From: a virus
Virus record (IMG/VR): IMGVR_UViG_3300009182_001783
Coordinates: 1-23,341 of that record
Strand: one strand, 5' to 3'
Length of the DNA stretch: 23,341 nt
Below the pieces are notes generated by a model. The model was not told where the DNA came from. It saw only the letters and a list, made by a program, of their open reading frames with translations, and did no database searches. Shown piece after piece: positions 2-23,341 of the stretch. Numbering within the stretch: the first letter of the stretch is position 1; each line of letters opens with the position of its first letter. The translations under genes were made by a program, and so were the position numbers.

Positions 2-868
2 AATCCAGAATACCTTAAATACATTCAAGTAGGATTCCCTATTGAAGTAATTATTGATCGAGTTGGTACAACCCACACAAATTCAGTATATAACATCCAA
101 GCTTCTTATTCTAAGAATATTATCGCTAAGAAACGAGATGAGTTACTTGATGCAATTGGAAAACCAATGGCTTACCTTGGAACTGTTACTGAATTAATCC
201 ATGGAGGTTACTTTGTAAATATTGCAGGAGTTCAATGTTTCATGCCAGGTTCGCTTGGTGGAATGAACAAATTGATCGACTTTGATGCTCTTATAGGCAA
301 ATCACTTTATGTTACCGCTATAAATTACTCAAAAGAGAAAGATTATATCGTTGTATCTCATAGAGAATATCTTAAAGCTTTAGTACCACAAACTATAGCA
401 GAATTACAAATGGGTATCTTATACAAAGGATTTGTAACTGGATGTTCACGTCACGGTATATTTGCTGAATTCAATGGTTGTTTAACTGGACTTATTGGTA
501 GAAATGATATTCTTCCTGAAAATGTTGATAATTTTGATGCACAAAAAATCAAACCAGGTGATGAGATTGAATTCTATATCAAAGAAGTTATTGACAACGA
601 TAAAATTGTACTTTCTCAGAAAGTTATCGAAGTTCAACCATCTGCATGGGATGATATCGAAGATAGATATAAAGTTCCATCAACAGTTACAGGCAGAGTA
701 AAAAAGATCGTTAGATATGGTGCTTTCGTAGAGATTGAACCTAAAATAGTTGGTCTACTTCACAAAACTTATTTAAGTGAAGACATAGAATTAGAAGTAG
801 GTCAAGAAATTGACGTTAAAATAACTAGAATCGATAAAGAATCTAAAAAAGTTGATTTTGCTATGTAG
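2..868 (+). CDS. S1-domain RNA-binding protein, ribosomal protein S1-like (5' partial)
   Basis: Open from the window edge, so 288 residues are visible and the true N-terminus is missing. Residues 1 to about 45 look like the tail end of one S1 (OB-fold) domain. Three full S1 domains follow at about 56-123, 136-207 and 226-288. The last is the most canonical, with the GRVKKIVRYGAFVEI strand pattern, then GLLHK and a closing VGQEIDVKITRID. S1 domains bind single-stranded RNA. In ribosomal protein S1 a chain of them carries mRNA to the 30S subunit. There are no catalytic residues or membrane segments, so it is probably a soluble RNA-binding factor. ATG at 167 is internal: the frame is open before it and encodes S1-like sequence. 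It ends in TAG, 33 bases before the next gene. A role in phage translation or RNA protection is inference; host S1 mimicry is the simplest idea. Confidence 0.85.
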   Translation, partial: NPEYLKYIQVGFPIEVIIDRVGTTHTNSVYNIQASYSKNIIAKKRDELLDAIGKPMAYLGTVTELIHGGYFVNIAGVQCFMPGSLGGMNKLIDFDALIGKSLYVTAINYSKEKDYIVVSHREYLKALVPQTIAELQMGILYKGFVTGCSRHGIFAEFNGCLTGLIGRNDILPENVDNFDAQKIKPGDEIEFYIKEVIDNDKIVLSQKVIEVQPSAWDDIEDRYKVPSTVTGRVKKIVRYGAFVEIEPKIVGLLHKTYLSEDIELEVGQEIDVKITRIDKESKKVDFAM

Positions 869-901
869 CCTTCTGGAATATATAATAAAAGAAAGCTATA
901 G

Positions 902-2266
902 ATGAATTTTAACTCTTACAATTTAACTGCTTTATTTGAAAAATCTTTAATTCGCATAACTGCTGATTTTGAATCTACCAAGGAGCCTAAATCAGCAGTT
1001 TCCGAATTGTCTAAATTACTTAAGACAAAGATTTCTCCAAATGAAGCTTCTTCGTATAATTTCCAATTGAATAGGACTGAAGATGGTGTATATCATTTTT
1101 CTACTAGCTTCATGTTGTGTAGAGACGCTAGATTAATTACTATCGACTTATTAAAATGGATTGAGCGAAATGGCTCTACCGGAAGAAATGACAATTTCTT
1201 CGTAGATCTGAAATTTTTAGATGAAGAGAAAGGACCTTTTAAAGGAACTCTATTTTCAACTGCTACAAAAATAGACAATATTGACAAACTTAAATTTATT
1301 TTAGAGTTTGATGAAGACAAAGTCTATAAAGCCTTTCCTTCAAGAAAGGACTCATTTAATTCGCAATCAATAATAAGATTCGAACCTACACAAAAGTTTA
1401 TACCCAAAGAGGCAGAATCCGTAGATCCAAGAGTTTATGATATTCCATCTACTCAAAATTGTGGTATCAACTTCGAAACACTTAATCAAGGATTCTTGAG
1501 AATGCAATATATTGGTGGTTTAGGGTACCAATCAAAAGTTGGCTTAGTTCTAGATACAATAAATCAATTTATCGTTACTTCATGGGATTGTGTGTTGAAC
1601 AAATCATTTACAAAAGAAAATCTTAAAGCTTTTGAAAAGGCTATTGCAGTAAAAGAAAAGATTAGACAATCATATTTAGATTACGCATTATTTAAGAAAA
1701 ATTTCCCAAAAGTTAAATTTACTGCAGATTTGATTTCTGACCAAAAGGTATTAGAATCATATTACAATATTCTTCGAGATAGATTTTATACAATATTTAC
1801 TAATTGTGAATTTTCTAATTCTGAATTTGAAATTAATTACGATTCAACATTATCGGTTATACAAATCCGAGATGCTAAAATTAAATGCAAAGAAATAGAA
1901 GGTTTAGAATTTATCAGTTGCGAAATCAAAAATGGAATTTTTCATAGATCAGATTTCTACGATTGCAAAATAGACGATGCAACACTTGTACAATCTAACA
2001 TTTACTTAGATTCAATTGTTACAAAATGTAATTTGATGAATTCATTTTCGAATCGAACTACTGAGTTGATTGATTGTGAGTTCAATGGAATGAATGGAGT
2101 ACTAAATGGTAAAATGACCAGAGGTATATTCAAGAAAGGAAAAATAGGCCTATTTGCTGATGTATCAAAAGACACAACGGTAATACAATACCAGTCGCTA
2201 AAATCAGGTTACGTTGTTGCTGGTGACCAAATCATTATACCTACAAAAAAATTTGACCAACTGTGA
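902..2266 (+). CDS. Uncharacterised phage protein: amidoligase-like body, pentapeptide-like C-terminus
   Basis: 454 residues in two visible parts. Residues about 15-250 follow the order of phage amidoligase-like proteins as I recall them: an early RITADFE strand, a helix ending in DLLKWIERNGST, a KFILEFDEDKVYKAFPSR segment, and FLRMQYIGGLGYQSK near residue 200. Where amidoligases usually have an E-L-V-S type strand and a G-L-H-I-N type strand, this protein reads FSTSFM and NFFVDL, so the catalytic Glu and His appear lost. Residues about 300-425 form a pentapeptide-like stretch in which NCEF, SCEI, DCKI, KCNL and DCEF recur (cysteines 302, 340, 355, 376, 392, plus 329). This fits a right-handed beta-helix with Cys at the i-2 position. 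The ATG follows a 33-base A-rich gap holding a TATAATA-like run (881-887). The stop overlaps the next start by 4 bases, implying coupling to the neck gene. Function unknown; the amidoligase link is a tentative recollection. Confidence 0.75.
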   Translation: MNFNSYNLTALFEKSLIRITADFESTKEPKSAVSELSKLLKTKISPNEASSYNFQLNRTEDGVYHFSTSFMLCRDARLITIDLLKWIERNGSTGRNDNFFVDLKFLDEEKGPFKGTLFSTATKIDNIDKLKFILEFDEDKVYKAFPSRKDSFNSQSIIRFEPTQKFIPKEAESVDPRVYDIPSTQNCGINFETLNQGFLRMQYIGGLGYQSKVGLVLDTINQFIVTSWDCVLNKSFTKENLKAFEKAIAVKEKIRQSYLDYALFKKNFPKVKFTADLISDQKVLESYYNILRDRFYTIFTNCEFSNSEFEINYDSTLSVIQIRDAKIKCKEIEGLEFISCEIKNGIFHRSDFYDCKIDDATLVQSNIYLDSIVTKCNLMNSFSNRTTELIDCEFNGMNGVLNGKMTRGIFKKGKIGLFADVSKDTTVIQYQSLKSGYVVAGDQIIIPTKKFDQL

Positions 2267-3009
2267 CGAATGACGAATTCATAGCAAACGTACAACAGGA
2301 ACTTTCTGTTGCTTGCGCATTACCTTTTACTGTTCCTATTCCTGAAATAAACCGAATCATTAAATATTCGGCTGATTGGTTCTATAAGAAATATGAAGAT
2401 GCAGTAGAAGAGAGATATTATTTTATTACGACAGCGTTGTTTAAACAAACTCAATTCAAAACTGATCGAACTGTTACTATGCCTGACTGTGTATTTTCTG
2501 TTTGGCAATTAAAAAAGCTAAAAGAAGATTTCGGTAGAGCAATGTCATTTGATGGTACTGCCGATTTTGGTATTGAGAGATTGTTTCTTTCGGATTCTGT
2601 ATCATTAGGACAAGGTACGGAAAACTTAATGTACTATACATTAAATATGTATTGGATGGATGTTGCATCTCATATTATTAATCACACGATTAGTTTCAAC
2701 TACAACCGAAATTCTCATAGATTATTTATTGGTGGAGCAACTCCAGAAAGAGATTGTGTTGCCATGTGTTATGCAAAAATACCATTAGAGCATTTGATGA
2801 ATGATGAGATATTCTATAGATATGTAGTGGCTAAATGTAAAGTTCAACTTTCTCGTATTCTTGGTACTTTTGATTTTAATCTACCTGGTGGAATAAAAAT
2901 TAACTACGACCTAATAAGAGACGAAGGTAAAGAGGAAATAGAAAAAATAGAAACTGAAGTAAAAGAAGAAGAAGGAATGGATTTTTTCTTTACTTCTGGA
3001 GGTTCGTAA
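2263..3009 (+). CDS. Putative neck / head-tail connector protein, T4 gp13-like
   Basis: 248 residues. The N-terminal part has the helical IPEINRIIKYSADWFYKKY segment, and a strand with the TMPDCVFSVWQLKKL pattern follows. The C-terminal part carries the most telling signal: a YNRNSHRLFIGG strand, then helices leading to LPGGIKINYDLIRDEGKEEI. That Leu-Pro-Gly-Gly-x-x-x-Asn segment before an acidic helix is what I recall from T4-type gp13 neck proteins. In T4, gp13 and gp14 complete the neck that joins the packaged head to the tail. T4 gp13 is about 309 residues, so this one is somewhat shorter. GTG is the only usable start: it sits inside GTGA, overlapping the previous stop, and the nearby ATG at 2270 is in another frame that stops at once. 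It is followed after 16 bases by the gp25-like gene. Another neck or connector type is possible. Confidence 0.6.
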   Translation: MTNDEFIANVQQELSVACALPFTVPIPEINRIIKYSADWFYKKYEDAVEERYYFITTALFKQTQFKTDRTVTMPDCVFSVWQLKKLKEDFGRAMSFDGTADFGIERLFLSDSVSLGQGTENLMYYTLNMYWMDVASHIINHTISFNYNRNSHRLFIGGATPERDCVAMCYAKIPLEHLMNDEIFYRYVVAKCKVQLSRILGTFDFNLPGGIKINYDLIRDEGKEEIEKIETEVKEEEGMDFFFTSGGS

Positions 3010-3025: not shown

Positions 3026-3397
3026 ATGGCAATAGATTTATATTTCAAAATGGACACATATCCATATTACGATGCTGACGAAATAGAGATTAATGATAGA
3101 GTTGAATTACTTCTACAAGAACTAGAAATGATTTTAACTACTCCTAAAGGGAGTGTATTAGGCGATCCTGATTTTGGAGTTTCTCTTGATTCATACATAT
3201 GGACGACGTCAAAAGGATCTTCACACATAAAACAAGATGTAGATTATCAAATTAATACGTACATATCTAACGACACATTAAAAGACATAGATTTAGATAT
3301 GGATGTTAATTTCGTTAAAGGCGAGATTTGGGACACTATATATCTTGATATATTAATAGACGGTACAAAGGTTGCTGGTTACGCGGTTGAACCATAA
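3026..3397 (+). CDS. Baseplate wedge protein, gp25-like (GPW/gp25 family)
   Basis: 123 residues, the usual size of the family. The helix LLLQELEMILTTPKGS runs into GDPDFGVSLDSYIW (around residues 45-58), the diagnostic gp25/GPW signature of a small residue, then D-P-D-F-G. A helix and a two-stranded ending follow (DTIYLDILIDGTKVAGYAVEP). In contractile-tailed phages gp25 joins the wedge to the central hub and sheath and nucleates sheath assembly. It has no lysozyme catalytic features, despite older annotations of this family. It lies directly before the gp6-like gene, the arrangement seen in many T4-like and P2-like tails. No Shine-Dalgarno sequence precedes the ATG. Confidence 0.9.
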   Translation: MAIDLYFKMDTYPYYDADEIEINDRVELLLQELEMILTTPKGSVLGDPDFGVSLDSYIWTTSKGSSHIKQDVDYQINTYISNDTLKDIDLDMDVNFVKGEIWDTIYLDILIDGTKVAGYAVEP

Positions 3398-3410: not shown

Positions 3411-5174
3411 ATGAAATTTTTAAATCCAAATAAATTATCATTCGAGGAAATACAAGTTTCTATTAGAAACTGGTTAATCGAAACATATAGCCAAGCTGAA
3501 GCAGTTTTTTCTAAGTCTTCGCCATTTGGACAAATACTTGCAGTAATACAAGAATTTGGACAATTGATATTTTACTATATTGAAGATGCGATAGTTGAAT
3601 CAAACATATATACGGCAACAAAACAAAGATCGATATATGGAATGGCTAGATTGACTGGACATAATCCTACTAGATCCATTTCGGCTCAAGGAACAATTAA
3701 CATAAAAATAAAACCTGGAGCAGATGCACCAATCAATGCTAGTTATATCTTAATATTAGATAAAACTAAAATTACGTGCATAAACAATAATAAGAAATAT
3801 TTTGTACAACTAGGAAACATTAATGGAAATTTAAGAATTCCTCTAAATTCCACAGAAATAACACCGTTAAAAGTTATTCAAGGGGAATTAGAAAGCCAAA
3901 CATTAACTGGTACTGGATTAGCTTTACAATCATTTACAGTTCTTTCTAAAAACACAATTGAAAATGATTTAATTTATATTACGGTAAACGGTGAAACTTA
4001 TGACATCATAGATTCGTTATATGACATGAACAAAGGAGATAAAAAATGCATAGTTAAAACTGGTATCTCTGGAGGAATAGACATTTATTTTGGTAATGAA
4101 GATTTTGGAACTATACCACCTTTAGGATCTACGATAAATGTACAATATGTTAAGACTGATGGATTTTCTGGTAATGTGTATTCTAAATCATCTTCTATAC
4201 AATTCAAATTCGAAGATATGGGATATACTAACACTGGAGAAGAAGTAGATTTGAATAAAGTATTAAATGTATCTATTGAAAAACCTTTAATATTAGGTTC
4301 TGATTCCGAAAATCCTGAATTGACGAAATTAATAGCACCTAAAATGAGTAGGTCTTTTATATTAGCTAATTCTGACAATTATATTAATTATCTTTCTCGA
4401 TTTAATTATGCTTATGTCGATGCATACAATACATTCGATGATGATTATATTGCCGACGATAATGTAGTGTACTTATTTTTGATTCCGGATATTGCTAAAA
4501 GACTAACAACTAATTCTGATTATTTTACTACAAAACTTCAAAATTTTTACTTAGATTCGGATGAAAAGCAAGCTCTTATTGATTTTATTGATATGAGCGG
4601 TAGACAGGTTATGGGTACAGAATTACAGATAGTAGATCCTATTATTACAAAATACGTAGCAAATATTTATTTACGAATATATGATTCAGTAGATCAGAAT
4701 ACTTTAAAAGGAGACATTCTTTCAAAATTAACAGATTATTTACTTAAGGTAAAACGAAGAGATAAAATACCTAAGTCAGATATAATTGCTTTGATAGAAA
4801 ACGTTAAAGGAGTAGATTCGGTTAATATGTCTTTCGTATCTGAAGCTAATGAAAGAGCAATAATCGACGGATATTATGTACAGAAAGTTACCTCAATTGA
4901 CAAAGTAAGAGGAATCACCATAGTAACCGATAATCAAATAATGTTAAAAACGGATGAAGATCCAAATTTAGGATTAGACGATTTTGGAGATATTAAAATA
5001 GGATTAAACGAACAACCTATAATTAGAGGTGGCTGGTATGATCGATTTGGAAATTATTATGATGATGGTATATCTCATAATCAATATTCATCCGTTAATC
5101 TAGTGGTCAAAGAAGTTATCAGAGAATCATTATCGATCAGAATGATGAATAACACGAAAACAAATTTAAAGTAA
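3411..5174 (+). CDS. Baseplate wedge protein, gp6-like / baseplate J-like
   Basis: 587 residues (T4 gp6 is about 660). The N-terminal helical region (about 15-90) includes FGQLIFYYIEDAIVESN and RSIYGMARLTGHNPTRS, the pattern of baseplate J-type proteins: helices, then a GHxPxR-like turn into beta strands. A beta-rich middle follows. The typical J-like C-terminal core runs from about 350 to 475: a VYLFLIPD strand, GRQVMGTELQIVDP near 397, a helix of the SKLTDYLLK type, IPKSDIIALIENVKGVDSV ending near 470. In T4, gp6 forms the iris-like ring that holds the six wedges together. It shares a 1-base TAATG junction with the next small gene. No Shine-Dalgarno sequence is visible, and the leader is A-rich. 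Assignment is strong to the family level. Confidence 0.85.
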   Translation: MKFLNPNKLSFEEIQVSIRNWLIETYSQAEAVFSKSSPFGQILAVIQEFGQLIFYYIEDAIVESNIYTATKQRSIYGMARLTGHNPTRSISAQGTINIKIKPGADAPINASYILILDKTKITCINNNKKYFVQLGNINGNLRIPLNSTEITPLKVIQGELESQTLTGTGLALQSFTVLSKNTIENDLIYITVNGETYDIIDSLYDMNKGDKKCIVKTGISGGIDIYFGNEDFGTIPPLGSTINVQYVKTDGFSGNVYSKSSSIQFKFEDMGYTNTGEEVDLNKVLNVSIEKPLILGSDSENPELTKLIAPKMSRSFILANSDNYINYLSRFNYAYVDAYNTFDDDYIADDNVVYLFLIPDIAKRLTTNSDYFTTKLQNFYLDSDEKQALIDFIDMSGRQVMGTELQIVDPIITKYVANIYLRIYDSVDQNTLKGDILSKLTDYLLKVKRRDKIPKSDIIALIENVKGVDSVNMSFVSEANERAIIDGYYVQKVTSIDKVRGITIVTDNQIMLKTDEDPNLGLDDFGDIKIGLNEQPIIRGGWYDRFGNYYDDGISHNQYSSVNLVVKEVIRESLSIRMMNNTKTNLK

Positions 5175-20582: not shown

Positions 20583-23341
20583 ATGCCAATTACAATCAAA
20601 GAACTTATATCGTCTGACTCAATGTCAGGAGTGATAGAAAAGATAAATTTTAACTTCGATCAGCTAATACTAGCTGGTGGTGGACCTCCTGGAATACAAG
20701 GCCTTCAAGGAATTGATGGACCTATTGGTCCACAAGGTTTTCGAGGTGACCATTGGTTTGCCGGTCCATCTGCGTATGGACAAACTGCCGATCATGATGG
20801 CTTATCTGAATTAAGAGTACAAGACCATTTCATTGATTCAACTGGTGAAGTGTATCAGTATTATAGCATATCTGGTTCAACTGGTTGGACTGCATCTGGT
20901 ATAAATCTTAGAGGTCCTGAAGGACCTCAAGGAGCTGCAGGTGGTTCATTGGAATGGAAAATTTATCTTGCAGCTACTGCAGGTAATGCTATTGACGGTA
21001 GTGCATATTCTCCAACAAATGTTCCTGCTACTGGACCAGATCCGTTATGGGCAGATTTCTTAATTCCTAATATGACATATAAAAACTCGATATTCATTGG
21101 AGATGGAGATTGGGCTTTTTATAATCTTAAGAATTTTGGTACTAATCTGTATGGAGCATTAGATACATCGACGATTCCTAAGTTTACGGTAATACAAAAT
21201 AATATTAATCCATTTGGACAGAATGGAGTTTCTTTTGGTGGACCTTTGTTTGAAGATTCGGCTTTAGGATCTATCTATCCTTCATACGGTAATTCCGGAG
21301 TAACAGGCGGTGGTAAAACTTATAGTGCATATAATTTTGTTAATGCTGCATTTGCTACCGAAGAACAAGAAATAGGAAGTGGATATATTACTAAATTTAA
21401 AGTTCATTCATATAGATCTAATATCAAAATACAAGCTGGAGGTATAGGTGGTGCAGGTACTGGAGCACCTGCATATGGATCAGCTATGTTAGAAATGGTA
21501 GCCGATAATATTAAAATTCAAGATTATTTTCAGGTTAAAAACATTAACATAGTAAAGGATTACTATTCTTCAATATATGGAAATGATAACCCAGACATTA
21601 ATAGAGAGATTTTATTAAATGCAATATCTGATACTAATACTGTTCCTGGTGTAACGACAGAAGCTAATATCGCAAATATTTATGGATATATTGGATTACA
21701 AAATGCACAAGGAGGTGGTAGTGGAATAGATAGTGAAGGATTTGCTGAGCATCATTATGGTAATGTTATAATTGGTCCTACCTATAATAAAAATACTTCT
21801 GTACCTCTAGCAACTAATAGTTTTCAAGGATTAGCAATCGTTAGAAAGATAACTAAGTTTGATGGTGCTGATGCTGCTATAAGATTTTTTCAACCAGATT
21901 CTCAATTGATTGGTTGGACTAATAACAAACTTAATTTAGCAGGTTCGATAACCCCGGTAAGAACTTTCGATGAACCAATAGAAGTACCTACAATATATGG
22001 TTCTACTGCGGTATTAGATTCATTAATGATTACTGCTGGTGTTTATAACATAGATAACAATACACAAAATCAAGACGATGTTTACGGTTTCAATGGAGGT
22101 AGACTTGGTTTATCTAATAACGCAATAACAATAAACAAACCTCAATTTCCTTTACATGTATCTATAATTCCAGATGCTACTACTAGATTTGCATCATGGG
22201 ATGGTGATTTACTTTCCGGATCTCCATACAATAAAAATACTAAATATTGGTTTGCCGGTTTTGATACTCGAGACTATAATGCAACGTTTAATCCGGGTAT
22301 TGGCTTTGGTATGACCGAATGGCGAGATGATTTATACGTTTATAGTTCAAGCGGAGTTTTCGGTAAAGGAACTGGTACATGGAAATCTGTTCCTAGAGCA
22401 TATATAAATCCAGTAATTAGAACTTATAATAGAGGAGATGTTGGAACTGATTTCTCATATGGTCCAGCATATGGTCAAGATGGAGAAGATGGTGGAGGTA
22501 TCGACGATTATGGATATGGTCAAATTAATGGTAAATATAATGCTCATATATATTTACAACCCGGTTCAGAATTAAATACTGGTAATGTAGGAATAGGATT
22601 TGTGCCAGGTACTACTGGATATGTTGGGTCAAAAGGTATTAGTATACGAAATATATCTTTTGCTAGATCTAAAATGTCGATTAACGGATCTATCACGGTT
22701 GGTCCTACATATGGTGGTTATCATAGCTTTTTTGCTCGTCCACCAATATATGGAGCTTTAGTAGGTGGATTAATTGCTCAAGGAGACATAATAAATCAAG
22801 GTCTTGGAACTTTAAAATGGAAATCTGATACAGGTTCTTGGAAAACTGGTGAGCCATATCCTGCGAATTCTCGAAATTTCTCATCTAATTTAGACGATTA
22901 CAATTATAAATTACAAGTAGGTTTTGCATCTGAAAAAATCGTAATGGCTAAAAGATTTTTATCTAAAGGTCATTCTAGTCCTATGTATCCGGATTTCATT
23001 TTACCAGATGCTAAAACTGGTATGGGTAGATTTCCTGGAGAACAAGGAACTGGTGCATTATTTGCAGATAGAAGCCTTTTTACTGGAGCAACTACAGTAA
23101 GTGATACCGTTAGTCCTATAATAGCTGCTAAATGGAGCGGAACTGGTGATGGAATGTATAAAAATGCAAAAACTGGAGTTGCCGGATTTAGTGTTACCGA
23201 CGCATTTGCTTTATCTCCTATATATTTAAACATAAATACATTACCGACATATGCAGTGAATGTAATACCTACTCGAGGAGGTATGACTTTAGCTGGAGGT
23301 CAACCTCATCAAATAGTTTATTATCAAATTCCTGCAAAAAA
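20583..23341 (+). CDS. Collagen-like tail fibre protein (3' partial)
   Basis: At least 919 residues, open to the window end with no internal stop. The start is fixed: an in-frame TGA (20580-20582) lies directly before the ATG. Residues 12-28 carry DSM, then IN-x-NF-x-x-L, the docking-type motif shared with the protein at 9259. Seven collagen-like Gly-X-Y triplets follow at 34-54 (GPPGIQGLQGIDGPIGPQG, then FR), then a module ending in W and a second short collagen run at 111-119 (GPEGPQGAA). The rest is beta-rich fibre sequence with repeated modules: GNVIIGPTY at 393, GNVGIG at 667 and GSITVGPTY at 702. These resemble the G-N-V-G-I-G shaft repeats common in phage fibres. It is probably a homotrimer that projects from the baseplate to bind the host surface. 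The C-terminal tip, which would hold the receptor domain or a chaperone, lies beyond the window. Confidence 0.8.
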   Translation, partial: MPITIKELISSDSMSGVIEKINFNFDQLILAGGGPPGIQGLQGIDGPIGPQGFRGDHWFAGPSAYGQTADHDGLSELRVQDHFIDSTGEVYQYYSISGSTGWTASGINLRGPEGPQGAAGGSLEWKIYLAATAGNAIDGSAYSPTNVPATGPDPLWADFLIPNMTYKNSIFIGDGDWAFYNLKNFGTNLYGALDTSTIPKFTVIQNNINPFGQNGVSFGGPLFEDSALGSIYPSYGNSGVTGGGKTYSAYNFVNAAFATEEQEIGSGYITKFKVHSYRSNIKIQAGGIGGAGTGAPAYGSAMLEMVADNIKIQDYFQVKNINIVKDYYSSIYGNDNPDINREILLNAISDTNTVPGVTTEANIANIYGYIGLQNAQGGGSGIDSEGFAEHHYGNVIIGPTYNKNTSVPLATNSFQGLAIVRKITKFDGADAAIRFFQPDSQLIGWTNNKLNLAGSITPVRTFDEPIEVPTIYGSTAVLDSLMITAGVYNIDNNTQNQDDVYGFNGGRLGLSNNAITINKPQFPLHVSIIPDATTRFASWDGDLLSGSPYNKNTKYWFAGFDTRDYNATFNPGIGFGMTEWRDDLYVYSSSGVFGKGTGTWKSVPRAYINPVIRTYNRGDVGTDFSYGPAYGQDGEDGGGIDDYGYGQINGKYNAHIYLQPGSELNTGNVGIGFVPGTTGYVGSKGISIRNISFARSKMSINGSITVGPTYGGYHSFFARPPIYGALVGGLIAQGDIINQGLGTLKWKSDTGSWKTGEPYPANSRNFSSNLDDYNYKLQVGFASEKIVMAKRFLSKGHSSPMYPDFILPDAKTGMGRFPGEQGTGALFADRSLFTGATTVSDTVSPIIAAKWSGTGDGMYKNAKTGVAGFSVTDAFALSPIYLNINTLPTYAVNVIPTRGGMTLAGGQPHQIVYYQIPAK

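Follow-up and report, generated by a model that had tools for sequence, protein, structure and literature searches.

Ribosomal protein S1 (bS1) and its relatives have been described in phages on several occasions. Al-Shayeb et al., 2020 reported rpS1 from huge phages in association with few Shine-Dalgarno (SD) sequences, so that the hypothesis of a phage S1 that favours viral messages is already published; in the accessible part of that text a true rpS1 is considered hard to confirm, and whether it works 'on or off the ribosome' is left undecided (PMC7162821). A similar argument was made by Chen et al., 2022 for phage bS21, with packaging raised as a possibility (PMC9723584). The bS1 of PhiMa05 was reported as acquired from Vampirovibrio-like hosts, together with bL21/bL27 (ISME J 2026, PMC13157829), and the S1 domain was set aside as ambiguous by Mizuno et al., 2019. 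Statements drawn from these and the other cited papers apply to the accessible portions of their texts.

The window, that is the whole stretch of DNA that was analysed, is an IMG/VR virus record of 23,341 bases from a structural region of a large phage. Its first open reading frame (2-868, plus strand, 288 aa) has no start inside the window and is open at the left edge. The features referred to below are as follows.

2 to 868, plus strand: C-terminal 288 aa of a phage S1 protein; full-length relatives have 387 aa and four S1 domains, of which residues 1-99 fall beyond the left edge of the window
2 to 106, plus strand: end of S1 domain D1, the ribosome-anchoring domain in bS1 (L006 model residues 100-134; bS1 alignment)
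161 to 379, plus strand: S1 domain D2 with the bS1-type F-[ML]-P-G-S motif (L006 model; sequence alignment)
419 to 619, plus strand: S1 domain D3 (PF00575 at 413-616; L006 model)
674 to 865, plus strand: S1 domain D4 (PF00575 at 683-865; L006 model)
879 to 885, plus strand: TATATAA box, late-promoter-like, before the next gene (902-2266); read from the sequence
902 to 2266, plus strand: conserved 454-aa neighbour, function not assigned; adjoins S1 in 49/54 non-redundant relatives
2263 to 3009, plus strand: head-tail adaptor Ad2-like protein with a GTG start; linkage conserved in 48/53
3026 to 3397, plus strand: gp25-like baseplate wedge protein (phrog_43)
3411 to 5174, plus strand: gp6-like baseplate wedge protein (phrog_219)

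The Pfam S1 model (PF00575) matched the first reading frame with an E-value of 3.8e-25, and the matches at D3 and D4 were separate and over the cut-off. Six other IMG/VR loci (L003-L007 and L015) are 96-98% identical to this frame. The complete gene there encodes 387 aa, and the copy in the window therefore lacks its first 99 residues, window residue 1 corresponding to residue 100 of the near-identical full protein L006. An AlphaFold2 model of L006, computed from 11 aligned phage S1s, contained four OB/S1 folds and two helices, one of them short (residues 13-16) and the other at 47-54. With a mean pLDDT of 77.5 and a pTM of 0.48 the single domains are reliable and their mutual arrangement is not. 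The preliminary description, made from the window alone, had read the frame as at least three complete S1 domains preceded or followed by part of one more; mapping the model on the window showed three complete domains and the end of D1, in exact agreement, and the missing N terminus and the domain count were recovered from the full-length relatives. It had also placed the frame in a phage structural-gene block, as the Ad2-like and the two baseplate wedge genes downstream bear out.

In a phmmer search of the PDB the best match of L006 was a bS1 of 591 aa (9zcd_A, E 2e-35), with residues 52-383 aligned onto 34-367 and D1-D4 in register; this chain has six S1 domains and is almost identical to a Flavobacterium bS1. 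Foldseek placed the L006 model closest to E. coli bS1 in the '30S mRNA delivery complex' (E 7e-27), and the best viral models carried the names '30S ribosomal protein S1' or 'S1 motif protein'. Based on phmmer, AlphaFold2 and Foldseek, the phage protein thus has four tandem S1 domains homologous in order to D1-D4 of bS1, D4 scoring highest among them, and D5-D6 are absent. The top NCBIfam models were all bS1, at scores far under the naming cut-offs (NF004952, 167 against 524 bits; NF005208, 138 against 368 bits), and we therefore use the label phage bS1 homologue and not rpsA orthologue. A nuclease or polynucleotide phosphorylase (PNPase)-type enzyme with accessory S1 domains, named in the preliminary description as the case against its reading, was ruled out, as the full L006 protein matched S1-type Pfam models only and no catalytic, RNase PH, KH or RNB domain. 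Sequence and model comparisons thus support a bS1 homologue over D1-D4 that has no nuclease domain and retains an anchor-type helix and most of the charged anchor positions. The closest deposited relative found was a 47% identical copy in the phage collection record LR756500. We assume that LR records such as this one stem from the 2020 study of Al-Shayeb et al.

The preliminary description had further proposed that the phage S1 acts in an SD-independent setting. We scored leaders for a 4-base SD match at -20 to -4 and compared them with shuffled leaders. The SD-less setting was real: none of the nine scored leaders in the window had a match (0/9, although one of the nine precedes an ATG inside the gene at 2263, whose start is GTG), and in the nearest long relative, G001 (200 kb), a match was present in 8% of 213 leaders and in 8% after shuffling. 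T4 had a match in 80% of 45 leaders against 30% in shuffled leaders, and Cellulophaga phage phi14:2 in 9% of 45 against 12%. An S1 domain was found neither in phi14:2 nor in T4. As phi14:2, a Bacteroidota phage, is equally SD-less without an S1 domain, A-rich SD-less leaders are imposed by the host with or without a phage S1, and the absence of SD sequences lends no support to an action of the S1 protein. SD absence tracks the host and not the S1 gene, as judged from this one control phage.

A profile scan gave at least 567 phage S1 relatives. Among the matches listed, a baseplate-hub gene lies upstream of S1 in 36 of the 46 non-redundant relatives that reach far enough, and downstream the 454-aa gene follows in 49 of 54 and the Ad2 gene in 48 of 53. 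The exceptions to the downstream linkage are L030-L034, five phages in which S1 is away from these tail genes. The S1 gene is thus a stable tail-block gene, held at one place across a wide phage group in nearly the whole family. The 454-aa neighbour had no Pfam or PHROG match; its middle part contains short repeats that are pentapeptide-like by eye. At the other end of the window the frame 20583-23339, open at the right edge, begins with Gly-x-y repeats of the collagen type (GPPGIQGLQGIDGPIGPQG), a feature of tail fibres.

The S1 genes were also marked by their upstream sequences. TATATAA was found 15-70 bases upstream of 34/53 S1 genes, as compared to 52/408 other genes of the same loci and 43/5435 gene-interior stretches. 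The boxes of the family's S1 genes themselves fall outside this window, and the box at 879-885 belongs to the 454-aa gene. TATATAA was seen before structural genes in G001 and relatives as well. We take the box to resemble T4 late promoters, and late expression of S1 is inferred from this likeness.

Close to the S1 start there was a second mark, which in the loci tested was specific to this gene. At 7672-7703 of L006, and in 53 other S1 leaders, a conserved UUAACCUUUUAA-like ACC-U-rich element precedes the S1 start by about 12-28 bases; it too falls outside the window. A weight matrix trained on 24 S1 leaders, with a threshold score of 10, recognized 15/24 held-out S1 leaders and 0/424 other genes of these loci, and in the 200 kb of G001 it recognized a single gene out of 299, which was S1. 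The conserved leader sequence amounted to 10.9 bits for S1 and 3.4-5.1 bits for the hub, 454-aa and Ad2 genes, with a held-out AUC of 0.997 against 0.78-0.85. L029-L034 were excluded from the matrix and neighbour-gene tests. The pattern was composed after the leaders had been viewed, which the held-out tests are meant to answer, and related leaders are not independent. As a general promoter the element was rejected, its first pattern occurring in 12/212 leaders of G001 and in 77/1898 interior stretches. An origin from host rpsA was likewise ruled out (2/88 host rpsA leaders), and no known RNA family matched the S1 leader in six sources. The element resembles what we take to be the ACCUCC-U-rich 3' tail of 16S rRNA. 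It is a candidate site of autogenous control, through which the phage S1 may regulate its own synthesis.

E. coli bS1 is anchored to uS2 via Phe5 and Phe9 of its N-terminal helix and via Asp39 and Lys43 of D1 (PMC4288201, PMC10123108). Following the residue numbering of these papers, we compared the contact positions in an alignment of 83 proteins, 18 of them from phages. The F9 position was Y in 15/18 phage rows and the K43 position R or K in 15/18. D39 was retained in 12/18 and lost in 6/18, and the F5 position was L in 12/18. The D2 residue F130 was conserved in 18/18.

Upstream of the anchor-type helix the phage protein has the motif F-D-W-x-x-[YF]-E. The cellular bS1 set consisted of 80 titled Bacteroidota loci, 91 phylum-sample loci (two of them from genomes also in the titled set) and named plasmid-collection records. 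F[DN]W was present in 82/83 titled Bacteroidota rows, the single miss (L110) being truncated by a contig edge, and in 30/91 phylum-sample rows. In the tree the motif ahead of D1 marked exactly one clade, with 35/35 rows of the Bacteroidia clade, 0/20 other phylum rows and 0/10 outgroup rows; the clade is named after its titled rows, and all named Bacteroidia fall within it. Some phylum-sample genomes (e.g. G109, G067, G121, G113 and G035) also encode a further S1 protein, about 490-590 aa long and about 30% identical to bS1.

Among the phage S1s listed, non-redundant at 90% and without the truncated rows L010 and L026, 35/54 had F[DN]W within the first 95 residues. When the phage S1s were shuffled 500 times, the count averaged 0.3 and never exceeded 3, and the motif occurred in 2/228 ORFs of G001. 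The strict motif was missing from 19/54. Seven of these have a degenerate form (FMW, FQW, FLW, TDW, ADW or FDF), and the other 12 comprise a subgroup (L027, L029, L285, L294, L304, L310), the pair L264/L280 and the four large phages L030-L033. The latter are 630-735-kb phages that encode bS21 in addition to an S1 lacking F[DN]W, with different neighbours, and their host group may be different from that of the F[DN]W phages. Either FNW or FDW occurs in the Lak phages (L034, L222), for which Prevotella is given as host in the sequence records. The S1 of Lak-A2 lacks D4 and has a long insert in D1 with FNW and the anchor helix retained; Lak-B5 has FDW. The motif in the phage S1 points towards a bS1 fitted to Bacteroidia ribosomes. 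From it, and from the occurrence of relatives in Lak phages, we infer Bacteroidota as the host phylum.

The phage S1 rows formed one clade with 100/100 support in both trees (18 of 83 rows and 29 of 68 rows), from which the N-terminal motif had been left out. The branch from this clade to cellular bS1 was long, 1.6-4.7 changes per column, and the trees gave no firm sister group. When phage and Bacteroidia rows were constrained together the likelihood was 0.9 higher and the AU test did not reject the constraint (p-AU 0.569). The phylogenetic comparison proposed in the preliminary description thus yielded a single phage clade on a long branch; the shared N-terminal motif favours either descent from Bacteroidia bS1 or adaptation to the Bacteroidia ribosome. 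Some 'phage' records with rpsA resemble cellular DNA and served as outgroup only. One of them, L223 (Acinetobacter phage MD-2021a), has rpsA in the order cmk-rpsA-himD as in E. coli and is possibly misfiled cellular DNA, as are possibly L212 and L213, small Bacteroidales 'plasmids' with the core gene rpsA.

Taken together, these comparisons are best read as indicating that the phage S1 works on host ribosomes, and they suggest that it directs these ribosomes towards viral mRNA. The shortened, four-domain bS1 is encoded by a large phage with a contractile tail, probably infecting Bacteroidia-like bacteria, and would be made late, out of the tail gene block. The F[DN]W motif, the amphipathic helix and D1 would dock on uS2 of the host 30S at the site used by host bS1, which the phage protein would compete with and displace. 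D2-D4 would keep A-rich, SD-less late phage mRNA close to the decoding channel, and initiation would then favour phage mRNA at the time of highest demand for virion proteins. We regard this course of late expression, docking and mRNA capture as the most likely one and as reasonably probable. In its favour, F. johnsoniae bS1 doubled the amplitude of the initiation reaction on one SD-less mRNA in vitro (PMC9976891). Against it, SD-independent translation was not abolished in E. coli with bS1 blocked from the 30S (PMC11800381). The missed bS1 cut-offs, the changes at F5 and D39, the phage S1s without the strict motif, the absence of D5-D6, the long branch without a firm place in the tree and the independence of SD absence from S1 also count against this course. 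A more far-reaching version, in which the phage has a complete initiation module of its own for SD-less ribosomes, is speculative and we consider it unlikely. The module would combine a mini-bS1 that docks on Bacteroidia ribosomes and exchanges onto the host 30S late in infection with a dedicated UUAACCUUUUAA-like leader by which the protein recognizes and throttles its own mRNA.

The same protein could work off the ribosome, as a chaperone or protector of phage mRNA or as a cofactor of a phage RNA enzyme without docking on the 30S. RNA binding is general among S1 domains, D4 is the best-scoring one here, host bS1 acts as a cofactor for T4 RegB and Qbeta replicase (PMC13157829), and the accessible text of Al-Shayeb et al. 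is undecided on this very point (PMC7162821). Such a protein would have no need of a D1-type domain, an anchor-type helix or an N-terminal motif specific to Bacteroidia, all of which have been retained, and we give this explanation a small chance. The fixed place between the baseplate hub and head-tail adaptor genes and the late-type box would also fit a protein associated with the virion. It would be produced along with the tail and then packaged or injected, in line with the packaging raised for phage bS21 (PMC9723584), and any action would come as infection begins; however, four-domain bS1 homology and a host-type N terminus have no obvious use in a tail, and in L030-L034 the S1 genes are away from those tail genes, which makes this quite improbable. 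A dominant-negative decoy that takes the place of host bS1 on uS2 and shuts down host translation instead of aiding phage mRNA draws on the same docking evidence, and D5-D6 are lost (in the Lak version D4 too), but it is very doubtful given the late promoter type, the long conservation of D2-D4 and the dependence of phage late mRNAs on the same ribosomes.

By what means Bacteroidia ribosomes locate start codons in the absence of SD pairing is an open question. With docking on the host 30S as the preferred reading, a compact phage bS1 carrying the N-terminal mark of its host group, together with an S1-specific leader, makes a small natural two-part system that would test which part of bS1 docks on Bacteroidia ribosomes and which mRNA feature is read. 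The F[DN]W mark is also of practical use, both for guessing the host group of uncultured phages and for separating true phage bS1 from other S1-domain proteins, a separation described as hard in the accessible text of the 2020 study (PMC7162821).

As compared to the rpS1 of huge phages (PMC7162821), the protein described here likewise has several S1 domains and is encoded among phage structural genes in genomes with few SD sequences. The difference lies in the positive marks found here, namely the Bacteroidia-type N terminus, the D1-D4 register, the fixed locus and the leader element, and in the SD link, which is here explained by the host. With Bacteroidia bS1 (Flavobacterium, 9zcd_A) it has in common the D1-D4 register, F[DN]W, the anchor-type helix and [L/M]PGS in D2, whereas the Flavobacterium protein has 591 aa and six S1 domains against 387 aa and four, is distant in sequence (the long branch) and has an unlike rpsA leader. 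Phage bS21 of Bacteroidetes phages (PMC9723584) is similarly an initiation-related ribosomal protein encoded beside structural genes in phages of SD-less Bacteroidota hosts, but it is another protein. A bS21 partner was not found in five long IMG/VR relatives, LR756500 or Lak-A2, but four huge phages of more distant relationship did contain bS21. The bS1 of PhiMa05 (PMC13157829) is phage-encoded as well, and in the tree it grouped, on a long branch, with bS1 rows of the outgroup and apart from this phage S1 family. In the open-licence texts searched, which do not prove absence, we found no literature on a phage S1 N-terminal motif or on phage S1 autoregulation. Relative to these systems, the present analysis adds the F[DN]W N terminus, the fixed tail-block locus with its TATATAA box and the S1-specific leader element.
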